Position numbers and translations under genes: made by a program
Origin: Semisulcospira habei
Taxonomy: Eukaryota; Mollusca; Gastropoda; Semisulcospiridae
NCBI GenBank assembly: GCA_036245525.1
Contig: BTPG01000006.1
Span: 88,617,535-88,681,534 of the forward strand
Length of the DNA: 64,000 nt
Reading direction: 5' to 3'
Shown: positions 13,701-22,700 of the stretch, in pieces
Numbering within the stretch: position 1 is the first letter of the stretch
Layout of the letters: each line of letters opens with the position of its first letter
Notes under the pieces: model-generated
What the model was told of the DNA's origin: nothing
Database searches by the model: none
What the model saw: the letters and a program-made list of their open reading frames with translations, nothing else

Positions 13701-16700
13701 CACTTCTGGAAACAGATCCAGCGTGATAGTTGAAGGTTTGTGCCAGAATAGCTCGGCGCCTAACTTATTCTGGCACAACCCTTGAACTATTACGCTCGAT
13801 CAGAGATGTGTAGGGACAGGATCGGTATCTCGCTGAGCGAGCCAGCGTCTCGCCTCTTGTCAAGTGCCGTCGCTGGCTTATTTGCTGAAACTTTGCACAG
13901 AGCACTTCCGGTAACTCTACTTTCACGCTCTAGCAGAATGGATGGAGTACTCCTCCACTCAATATTGCAGGTAAAAGTTGCATTTTTAAAACTATAAATG
14001 GAGGTGTAGCTGGGTCAGAGAGAGAGAAGGCAAACCCGAAATTGTTTTTTTTTTTTTTTTGAAAATAGCATTGTTTTCGTCATATTTTACAAAGTATAAT
14101 CCCTGCAGAAACTTCCATGGGCATGGAACTTGCCAGGCAAGTTTAGTCTGTCATTGTCAGTGTAGTGATTAGTTATGTTGGCAGCTGTTTATTGTCAAAA
14201 TAAGAAGTGCAATAGCTAGTGATACTGATAGGGTTCGTTTCAGACGTCAAGTGTAGTGAGTTATACGCGTAGTAGGTTGATTGATTGTACATTGCTTAAC
14301 GTCCCGACAGCAACAAGGCTTTCTCAGGACGTGCCTGCACAGCTTGTGAAAAAAAAAACTAAACAGAACATTGAATGTATGTCGCCAGCCGGTCAAATAC
14401 ATTAAATAAACCTAACACATGGGCCTAAATAAAGCTAAGACCATTTAGCAACACAAATCCAATATCAAGAGCTACAGGCAGTGCAGACAGTAGGGAGAGT
14501 TTTAAAAAGGCAAATACAGGTGAATGGACAAAGGGTAGACAGAAACACATGCCCCAGAATAGAGAGATAAACCCACCCTGTGGGGCTGACCAGGGTGACC
14601 CTGGGAACTAAAAAATACCTAACCCCACCCAAGTCCCCCAGGGCAGACCCGGGTGGGGCCGCGTAGTAGGCCTACTAGCAGGCTTTGTTATGGAATCAGG
14701 AATGCGAGCAAATTCTAGCCATAGCACTGAAATTATACTAACTTCATACAATGTTCAATTCATCTGATTCCGACTAGAATGTTTCTACATTTATTAATTG
14801 TGTTTGTGCTTGATATTTGACGCCGTTTTATAATAATTTGAAGGATATTGGAGATGAAGATCCGGATAATTCTGCCTGGCAGGAACAAACTGTCAACATT
14901 GGCAAGTGCAAAGGATACCAGTCCAGTGTTAAGGTCAGTACAGTTTGCTCAATGTTGAAGAGAAGTTGCTCTGTTATTATTAATTCCTGTTTGTTGCATA
15001 AACCATATTTTTGGGGCATACACACATTACAGAAAAGAAGAATAAAAATCAATAATATGACTAGTAAATTTTTTTTCCACAATGCTGTAGCCTATGCTAG
15101 ATTGTTAAATTCATGTTATGGATTTACGAATTGCTAGTTCGGGTGAACTTACTGATGTTACAACTTTCATTTTATTAACTTTCAGGTGGATATTGCTGTT
15201 GTAACCCGTGCCTGCGAAAAACTAATTGCTGATGAATGCATGCTAAAAGAGGTTCACGATGCTTGCAAGACTGTGGACAGTAAGTTTTTTGTTTTTTTGT
15301 TTAATGTGAACACTTTTTATAGAAAAAAAATCAAAGAAAAGAAAATGCAATACAGTTTACTATCTGTGCAACAATTTCTGCTTGTATGTTTAGGACAGGA
15401 GCTTGTATGCAGACTGCAATTCCTCGAAAGCTGCCTAGATGTACAGAAGTCTTGCTTCAGGAACATTAACAGAGAAAAGTCATGGGCCAAGTTCCACCTA
15501 GCAATGGGAAACCAAGACTACACAAGGTCACTGGATGAGATTGTCGGTTCGCATGCTTCACCCTGGCTATGCTTCGCAACTTTTGAAGATATTTTGTCAA
15601 CAGTTTTTGCAAGTCCTGAGATAACAGTTGATAGTGACATCACACTAACAATTGAAGAGAAGGACATTACTAGGTATATTGGTGGTGCTGTGCTGCAAAA
15701 GCTAATGAAAAAAGCATACAGACTGAAAGACATTGAGAAAAGACAAGAGTTGTTGGACTGTATACAATCTCTGACAGTTGACAGTGCAGCTTCAGGCAGC
15801 CTGACATCTTTGCTAGATAGAGGAGGGCTAGTGAAACTGCATCCAAAGGCTGAGCTCTTGTTTGAATGTCTCGAAACAACATTCAGATTAAAGTACCATG
15901 GGTTCTGTACTCAAACATTGTCTTTTGATGTTTACTTCCAAGAATGCTTGTCTTTGGATGCAGTTTCCAAGCTGCATGATCATATTCACACACAAGAGAG
16001 CACCAAGGAAAAAATGTTAAGAGATCTCGCATTCATTTATTTCAAGGTCAGAGCACATCATAAATGCAGATCATACATGGACAGCTTTAGCCAACGCACT
16101 CATACAGAAAAAAGAGAAAAGGGCCTTCGAAAGCGTCTCAGAAAAGAAAAGAAAAGCATGTAATGAAAACGAGAAGACGTAGGAAATCTACTTGTATTTA
16201 TATTCGAAATTATACTACACTTTTGTCACCATATTTCTCATTCTCTCTCTCTTTCTCACACATTTAAATAACTTTTCTGTACATACAAATTACAGTAACT
16301 CAAATAGAAGGCATAATCTCTAGCAAGAAAACGAGGATTGGCCAGGTTGTTTGCCGTATGCACAAGTAAAAAAAAAAAATCAGGGAAAAATTGCACAACA
16401 CTTTTGTTGCCAGCAATGTAAAAAGTGCAGGTTTGTGTGTGCCAGCTGTGCAGCATCTCCTGAGAATAATTTAACCTGTCATAATGTTCCAACAGCATTA
16501 TCTATAATCTAATTCTCTTCTGCTTGATGTAATTATTTTTAATATGAGAACTGAAAGACTAATTCACTAATCTTATTGTTTACGATCACAGAAAACGAAG
16601 AGTACACACAAAAAAATGTAATTCTGGTGACCTTGGGGAATAATTCCACTATTTATTTGTGTGTGATTACTTTGCAAATGACAGACAAATGTTTTGTTAA

Positions 16701-19700: not shown

Positions 19701-22700
19701 GCTTTTTGTGGAGCAGTGATCGAACATAGCTACAGTGTTCACACACATGAATACCGCTATCCAGCAACAAAACACACTTGGTCGCTCTTACAGCTGATGT
19801 GTGTTCATCTACAGATTTGCATAACACATGCCTAAAGTACAGCTGCCCCTTGCTGGGGAGTTTGGCAAACTCCTGCAGAGAGTAATCAGTGACTCCCTCG
19901 CAGATCTGCTTTCCATTGAGAGTCATGAGAAATGATTTCAGATGTATACTTTCAATGTTCACATCTGTTGGCACTGGCAACCCATAAACTTGCGTAGTGG
20001 CTACAAAGTCAGACCTAACATTCACTTTGAACCTGAGCACACTGTCATCAAGGATGGCAAGAACAATCTGTTCCTCGGTGCTGCTGATCTTAATCCAGGG
20101 TGATGGCAAACTTTCCGCAGCTTGTTGTACTTCACCAAAGTTGTAGTAGGCAACTGTCTCTGGAATCTCAGGAGGATGTCTGTCTGTCTGAAAAAAAATT
20201 TAATAAATAAATGTTATATTGCAGAAAATAAAAGTTAATCACCGGTGCACAGCATAACTATACTCACTGCATTTTGGAGGCACAATCACATCATGGCGAA
20301 CTGTATCAGAACTATTTGTGCACATGCACAGCTTGACTGCATTCTGCAGGCACATTCAAATCATGCCAAACTGTACAAATTTAGAAACGGCTTACCACTA
20401 CCAGTAATGAGCAAAAAGTATTAATAATTTGTTTTATTTTATTTATTGCATTAATGCATTTACTTAATTTTTTTTAAAGTTCTTTACTAAAAAATAAAAT
20501 CATTTCTGATTATATTCCATTCAACACTGCAAGAAAGCAAGTCTTAGAGTTGTTCATTAAAAAGTACATGTATCCTGTTGTAAAATGAGGAAATAGAAAA
20601 CTAATATGTATTTGAACCCCAACAGAATGTTTATTTTAGCCCAGCCCTGAAAGTGGCGACTAGACAACATTTGTGAGTTCAAAATGTGTAACTCGCCAAA
20701 TGGACTGAACCCATAACAGGTCGGTTGGATCAGTATTATTATATGTACTGCAACTTTGACATTTTTGGACAGTTTCACTCACAATTCAGACCTCCCTATG
20801 TAATGTATGCACAGCAATACGCTTTCACATCACTTACTGTATTACTCTGGTTTACAACTAAGAAACATTTTCACAAGTAGGGCCTTTCTGCAAGTGTACA
20901 CTACAAAAATAGATGGCATGCCACATGAAAAAAAATAGTGTTGTTTAGTTTGAAATACTCAAATAGCGACTAACTTTTTGTATTTGTCCAGTAAAATGTT
21001 TGAGTGTGTCGCTAATAACTAGTAAAGAAAATTTACTAGCCTCTTTTCATCTTGGGTTCAGCATCCACAATCACTTGAACAGTATGTTGATTAATTTGAT
21101 GCTATATCACAAATGAATATATAGGAGGGCACAGCCTCTCAGGGCTGTGTACTCTCACTTGACTTACCGGAGGCTTTCTCGCAGGCAACTTCGAGGTTTC
21201 CACACTTCGCTGTGGCATCCACAAGGTTGGTAGGCTGCCTGGCTTAAGGGAGCGACGCTTGCCACTCTCTGAAAGCATATCAATAATGAATATAAATACA
21301 GGAAATTCATGACATCAATTTTATTATTATTATTATCATCATGATCAATAACGACATCATAATAGTTGTATGATATATATCAATAGACTCTACAACTCAA
21401 CTGTAGTATTACTAAACTGACAGGTTGATTGACAGGTAAATTGCTAGTGGTCCAGTGTTGTAACTTGGGGGCTGCTTGTTTCCATAGTGTTTATTTTTAT
21501 TTTAAAAAAAGAAAAAGACAAGTATTGTCTATTTTCTGTAGGCACAACTGACCTCGACCTGTATTTAATGTGGTCTTTGTGTAGGTGCTGGCCATAGCCT
21601 CAGCGAATGCATTCCAGCCACACACAATCACACAGTGACACAGCGAATGCATTCCAGCCACACACAATCACAAAGTGACACAGCGAATGCATTCTGTAAT
21701 GCCCTCACTGCAAAGTTGTTTCATGGCTGTATTTGTTAATACCGCATATATTACACAAAATTAACGCAGGAAACAGACATACCTGAAATTCTAATGCATT
21801 CTGGTGTAAAATGTCGAGAACATATTGTGGCTCTTGAAAGGTTGAAACTTGCATCGCACCGATTTACTGCTCGAACAAGGGCCTTCTCCCAGTCCTGATG
21901 TTTGAACTGCCGGATGGAAAAAAACGCCACGCCACGGTTCCTAACACTACATGTGCCGCATCCAACGATAGCACAGTTGCTTCCAGGCATCGTTAAAAAT
22001 TAATCGGAACACCTTGATAGATCAAAACATTCCGGTAGCACCTTCGAACAGAAAACGGAAATAACAAATGCAAACTATTCGACTGACATGCGCAGTGGAA
22101 GTCTATCGCTTTGGCCACGAAGATACCGATCCTCTCCCCTACATATCTCTGGCTCGATCCATGTCTTGCCGTGGCGTGTCGGAGTAGTTAACTCATTCTA
22201 CCCCGCCAAAATCCTTAAATTTTGCCCCTGTTCTCTCAAGACTGCATTGCAGTGCAGGACACAGATCGACCATGATAGTAGTTCAAGGGTGATGCCAGAA
22301 TAGCTTGGCGCCCGTAGGCGCCAAGCTATTCTGGCATCACCCTTGAACTATCATGGTCGATCCTTATCCTGCTGTGGTGTGTCTGGGGTAGAATGAGTTA
22401 AGGCGATATACTCCCGACAGTAAAGATTAATGGTTCGCAGTATCTCCTTTACGAATGTATACTTAGAATGTCTGACAATGATGCTGGACAAAAGGGTTCA
22501 ATTAAATTGTGAAGTTTGATTGTCGTAAAATTGAAAGACTGTTCTCTTCTTCCTCTCCTTCGTAGGCAGGAGAGTTCCTTCCGCTACGCCCAAACGGCAG
22601 GGGGGAAAACCTCTGATACGTGCGCCTACTCACATAGGTTGTTAACCCCTTCACATGATACAAATACAAGAAACATAGATCCTCATGAGCCCCAGCGCCT

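Follow-up and report, generated by a model that had tools for sequence, protein, structure and literature searches.

A P-superfamily transposon with two convergent genes in Semisulcospira habei and a candidate separate C-terminal-domain subunit

We analysed a stretch of 64,000 nucleotides from the gastropod Semisulcospira habei (assembly GCA_036245525.1, contig BTPG01000006.1, positions 88,617,535 to 88,681,534, forward strand; hereafter the window) and found a two-gene transposon at positions 13,801-22,151. This element is probably a P-superfamily cut-and-paste transposon whose transposase is made as two subunits from separate transcripts, a catalytic one on the minus strand and a C-terminal domain (CTD) on the plus strand. 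In the proposed mechanism, the minus-strand gene would supply the catalytic subunit, with a THAP DNA-binding domain, a helix-turn-helix (HTH)-like region and a DDE RNase H fold with a GTP-binding-type insertion. The plus-strand gene, lying tail to tail with it, would supply the CTD as a free protein. Both proteins would assemble on the terminal inverted repeats (TIRs), the free CTD would be required in trans for proper strand transfer, and the complex may use GTP.

The transposase gene and its convergent partner

The transposase gene has three exons, GT-AG introns and 842 open codons, in agreement with the open THAP transposase recognised in an earlier note on this DNA (Table 1). In the Pfam search, the N-terminal part of RNase H (E = 3e-25) and the GTP-binding insertion domain (E = 3.6e-13) were detected; the short model for the C-terminal part of RNase H (18.2 bits, cut-off 24) and the HTH domain PF12017 (15.3 bits, cut-off 23) stayed under their cut-offs. 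In addition, the protein matched the Drosophila P transposase 6p5a (E = 6e-20). Our reading of this alignment indicates that the DDE catalytic residues (D230, D303 and E531 of the D. melanogaster P transposase, DmTNP) are conserved, and that six of the eight GTP-contact residues given in a review of DmTNP are identical, with K385 and K400 differing. On these sequence features, namely the split RNase H with its GTP-binding-type insertion, the DDE residues and the THAP domain, together with the TIRs and a 7-bp target site duplication (TSD), the element is assigned to the P superfamily. The chain ends about 60 residues past the catalytic Glu and contains no CTD. Furthermore, 68 of 70 transposase relatives likewise stop soon after this residue. 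Thus, this is not the classical single-chain P transposase.

The plus-strand gene has four exons, GT-AG introns and 328 open codons, and is convergent with the transposase gene. The earlier note had reported this second, convergent spliced gene and left it unidentified; its structure was confirmed here, and our results point to the CTD. Pfam gave no match for the 328-residue protein. Its predicted fold matches the CTD of 6p5a over residues 83-235 (256 residues were modelled), and in two models the CTD ranked first in VIA-align, clearly ahead of the next match. The protein also ends in a basic tail, and the P CTD has a basic tail too. The predicted fold thus supports the view that the plus-strand protein is the CTD otherwise missing from the transposase. 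For one of its homologues, P0098, there is a precomputed Pfam label (PF22824), which was neither reproduced by our Pfam scan nor found in a literature search.

Another explanation is that the plus-strand gene encodes an accessory or regulatory protein (for silencing escape, a repressor or a nuclear factor) that only resembles a helical CTD, and that the transposase acts by itself, lacking this domain. PDB profile searches and hhalign comparison with the tails of P0088 and P0089 found no sequence link between the plus-strand protein and the CTD, and Foldseek against the PDB did not connect the two. In addition, internally deleted copies often keep the plus-strand gene open with the transposase cut, which fits a repressor-like role. 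However, the VIA-align result, the basic tail and the lack of a CTD in the transposase itself all speak against this explanation, and we regard it as rather unlikely.

Ends, copies and target site in the host genome

The element begins with CAGAGAT and ends with ATCTCTG, and GCTCGAT flanks it on both sides. The alignment score of the TIRs, about 31 bp long, was reached by none of 20,000 shuffles. The termini, repeats and duplication described earlier are all present. The window by itself allows a TSD of 7 or 8 bp, as the next target base is a C. An exact 7-bp TSD of varying sequence, next to the same termini, was found in 17 of the 18 other copies with both ends and both flanks (L010 has none). 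An 8-bp TSD, with the element starting at AGAGAT, was rejected, since just 3 of the 18 copies match when the C is included.

The left end of the element occurs at least 40 times in the host genome (1.98 Gb, 507 contigs), the window copy included, with 96-100% identity (40 of 64 candidates scored). We fetched 20 of the 39 others, of which 18 show both ends and a flank on each side within the fetched stretch. The earlier note had asked for further copies and whether any with these termini and transposase lack the plus-strand gene; the plus-gene region is present in all 20, which supports the two-gene P/THAP reading of that note. The main exon of the transposase is mostly deleted in 16 of them (0-1,575 of 2,220 bases left), with the plus-strand gene kept. 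The plus frame is open over all 328 codons in seven copies and changed only at the last codons in three more. Two copies (L019 and L020) have the transposase frame open over its full length, both with a frameshifted plus-strand gene. In another copy, at C6:38.05 Mb, the main exons of the two genes are both open. Such a mixture of copies with two open genes and copies with a single one is as expected of parts able to act in trans. In exon 4 of the plus-strand gene, 13 of 25 distinct changes within this young family alter the protein (two are stops), against 75% expected (binomial P = 0.0095, uncorrected for shared descent). Exons were not less diverged than introns in this family (P = 0.28).

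The element has been mobile in this genome, and its insertion point lies within an arm of a short palindromic host repeat. A clean empty site is given by four other stretches of this repeat, in which the joined flanks align across the junction with 73-80% identity. The earlier note had cited the paralogous intron of copy B as a natural empty site. The element is indeed missing there, but the palindromic repeat copy that hosts it is missing too, so this intron is not a precise empty site. The note had also called the element structurally complete; its termini, its TSD and its two open genes are confirmed. However, the window copy is not pristine, because intron 1 of the plus-strand gene carries a nested insert (Table 1).

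The palindromic repeat family, into which the P element has inserted, has 16 stretches in the window (22,189-22,394 and 15 others), with a 34-bp perfect stem and TTAA at the edges. In addition, two long collinear paralogous stretches at about 4-34 kb and 36-63 kb of the window, with blocks about 77-95% identical, show that the host locus is duplicated in tandem.

Table 1. Features of the element and its flanks (window coordinates)
Feature	Position	Strand	Evidence
Left target site duplication, GCTCGAT	13794..13800	.	17 of 18 other copies show 7 bp
Left terminal inverted repeat	13801..13831	+	Shuffle test; other copies share the terminus
CTD gene exon 1, predicted start	13938..13970	+	GT-AG; inferred only, no homologue covers the exon
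Nested 383-bp repeat insert	14277..14659	.	Missing at this spot in 20 of 20 other copies fetched, several of which have it at another place
CTD gene exon 2, predicted	14844..14933	+	Prediction alone
CTD gene exon 3	15186..15279	+	Exon 3/4 junction matched by annotated Batillaria protein P0093
CTD gene exon 4, candidate C-terminal-domain subunit, basic tail at end	15394..16163	+	Homologues; fold match; convergent homologues in 12 of 12 loci
Tandem repeat, 3 x 55 bp, between the two genes	17279..17443	.	
Transposase exon 3: HTH-like region and RNase H split by a GTP-binding-type insertion domain, without CTD	17968..20187	-	
Transposase exon 2	21168..21268	-	GT-AG; full-length relatives align through
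Tandem repeat, 2.3 x 40 bp, transposase intron 1	21601..21694	.	
Transposase exon 1, THAP domain (C2CH)	21783..21990	-	Pfam 35.7 bits in spliced protein, cut-off 23.9
Right terminal inverted repeat	22121..22151	-	Shuffle test
Right target site duplication, GCTCGAT	22152..22158	.	Read in the window; other copies

Convergent pairing in other families and animals

The C-terminal 390 residues of the transposase were used as a query against the same genome (106 of 537 candidates scored), and 107 matches with 100 to 55% identity were listed. These fall into about eight families, at 99%, 72%, 64% (together with 62%), 59% (two families), 58%, 56% and 55%, grouped by transposase identity and plus-homologue sequence, not by clustering; 95-98% of the DNA at the 62% locus is shared with the 64% locus. 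Several of the families have many near-identical open copies. The 5 kb downstream of the transposase was read at 12 loci from all eight families, one of them the family of the window, in pieces that stop short of the ends of the other families. All 12 loci have a homologue of the plus-strand protein on the opposite strand, nine as a single open exon and three in pieces (best-piece E from 4e-49 to 2e-117). Thus, a homologue of the second gene reported in the earlier note accompanies the transposase at 11 loci of seven other families as well.

Furthermore, 40 of the transposase matches were used for a pairing count (66 of the 67 rows left out are under 62%). A listed plus-protein match lies within 12 kb of 32 of these 40, in every case downstream, on the opposite strand and 1.3-7.4 kb away. 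Among the eight without a listed partner, the three that were read (L019, L020 and L031) have broken plus-strand genes. In addition, a locus of the 99% family and one of the 72% family showed no blastn-detectable shared DNA in the 5 kb compared, and both keep the gene pair. Thus, the pairing has outlasted DNA similarity.

The pairing apparently also occurs in other records. In Batillaria attramentaria, the longest contig of both BaRGS_00026809 (transposase) and BaRGS_00026811 (plus homologue) has 951,951 bases. In a second record, the longest contig of both P0078 and P0098 has 1,816,558 bases; from these equal sizes we infer that each pair shares one contig. Among 87 transposases placed in a tree, the two paired ones fell into separate groups with high local support (the deep splits were weakly supported), and early-ending transposases occur in both groups. 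The named transposase relatives come from Batillaria, Littorina, Biomphalaria, Priapulus, amphioxus and thrips, which suggests a wide spread of early-ending transposases.

These results bear on two further explanations. The first is that this is an ordinary single-gene P element in which the CTD exon was recently inverted in the family of the window. The Drosophila P transposase does have its CTD in the same chain. However, the split is also found in families only 55-72% identical in transposase, and early-ending transposases span both tree groups; a recent inversion is therefore rejected on the copy and family evidence as highly improbable. The second, that a captured host gene or an unrelated nested element is carried by chance, has in its favour one unrelated nested insert in the window copy, but the plus-strand gene is in all 20 copies fetched, in convergent orientation at all 12 loci, apparently beside a transposase in two other records, and still paired at the 99% and 72% loci, so we dismiss it as scarcely credible.

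A broader view goes beyond a split P-type transposase in one genome. It proposes an old, widespread P branch with an obligate two-protein transposase encoded by convergent genes, a second, independent layout of the RAG1/RAG2 kind, in which amplified copies with the CTD gene alone may be satellites that supply the second subunit or, by dosage, restrain it. We consider the chances of this view to be about even.

Among the 126 listed plus-gene matches, 94 have no partner among the 40 paired transposase rows; some partners may be unlisted, with 106 of 537 candidates scored. Many of these are members of a single near-identical 47% class whose 273-aa frame is open, seemingly amplified copies that keep the CTD gene alone. 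In addition, same-strand copies of one 59% transposase family are spaced by 12,967 and 12,964 bases (C192 at 6170, 19137 and 32104; C1 at 280367062 and 280380026), a tandem array of about 13-kb units.

Comparison with known systems

The element resembles the D. melanogaster P element and DmTNP in its THAP domain, its RNase H with an inserted GTP-binding-type domain, its DDE residues, 31-bp TIRs and short TSD. The Drosophila P element also has CA...TG-like ends. However, it has one gene, a CTD in the same chain and an 8-bp TSD, whereas our element has two convergent genes and a 7-bp TSD. Kolobok elements also bear THAP domains and have a TTAA target duplication. The present element does not share this duplication, since the TSDs found here are 7 bp long and vary in sequence.

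According to the accessible parts of the sources, TSDs of the P superfamily are 7-8 bp (PMC7776569, PMC4168063). Galileo, of the same superfamily, shares the THAP transposase and, in most copies, the 7-bp TSD; it differs in its long TIRs, and a second gene is not mentioned in the part of that paper available (PMC4168063). THAP9 and the zebrafish Pdre elements, for which excision has been shown, also combine a THAP domain with a P-type transposase, but as a single chain, with the CTD in its predicted model (as far as PMC10983969 was available), and their TSD is given as 8 bp in the available part of PMC7776569.

By analogy, the nearest layout is that of the RAG-like (RAGL) transposons, which also have two convergent genes between the TIRs of a cut-and-paste element; RAG1L and RAG2L encode two cooperating subunits, according to the available part of PMC7204232. 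However, the RAGL transposase belongs to another superfamily, and the catalytic protein here is P-type by Pfam and the 6p5a match, not RAG1-type. In addition, the RAGL partner is RAG2-type with kelch repeats, and the TSD of RAGL elements is 5 bp, in contrast to 7 bp in 17 of 18 copies here.

Textbooks describe the P element transposase as a single-chain enzyme; in a branch of the proposed kind, one of its DNA-contacting domains would be encoded by a separate gene. Such a gene would make the role of the CTD directly testable, with the second protein in or out, and would add a convergent two-gene cut-and-paste system from animals for comparison with RAG1/RAG2. Furthermore, an annotation that lists the THAP transposase alone may miss part of the machinery. 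By title and opening abstract, we found no P element with a separate CTD gene in the literature, with most subscription journals and Repbase outside this scope, where a prior description is possible; the available part of a study of sea cucumber THAP genes (PMC13228809) mentions no separate CTD gene.

Searches of viral contigs with the plus-strand protein, the transposase, P0088 and a 12-row plus-protein alignment, and a search of Rfam, gave nothing useful. The prokaryote collection yielded one locus (L001), whose contig of 3,981 bases has a 33% transposase but no homologue of the plus-strand gene. This contig is filed under a Nitrosopumilus metagenome-assembled genome and encodes an early-ending transposase of the animal P type with an adjoining open reading frame resembling a retroelement integrase; it is likely eukaryotic contamination.
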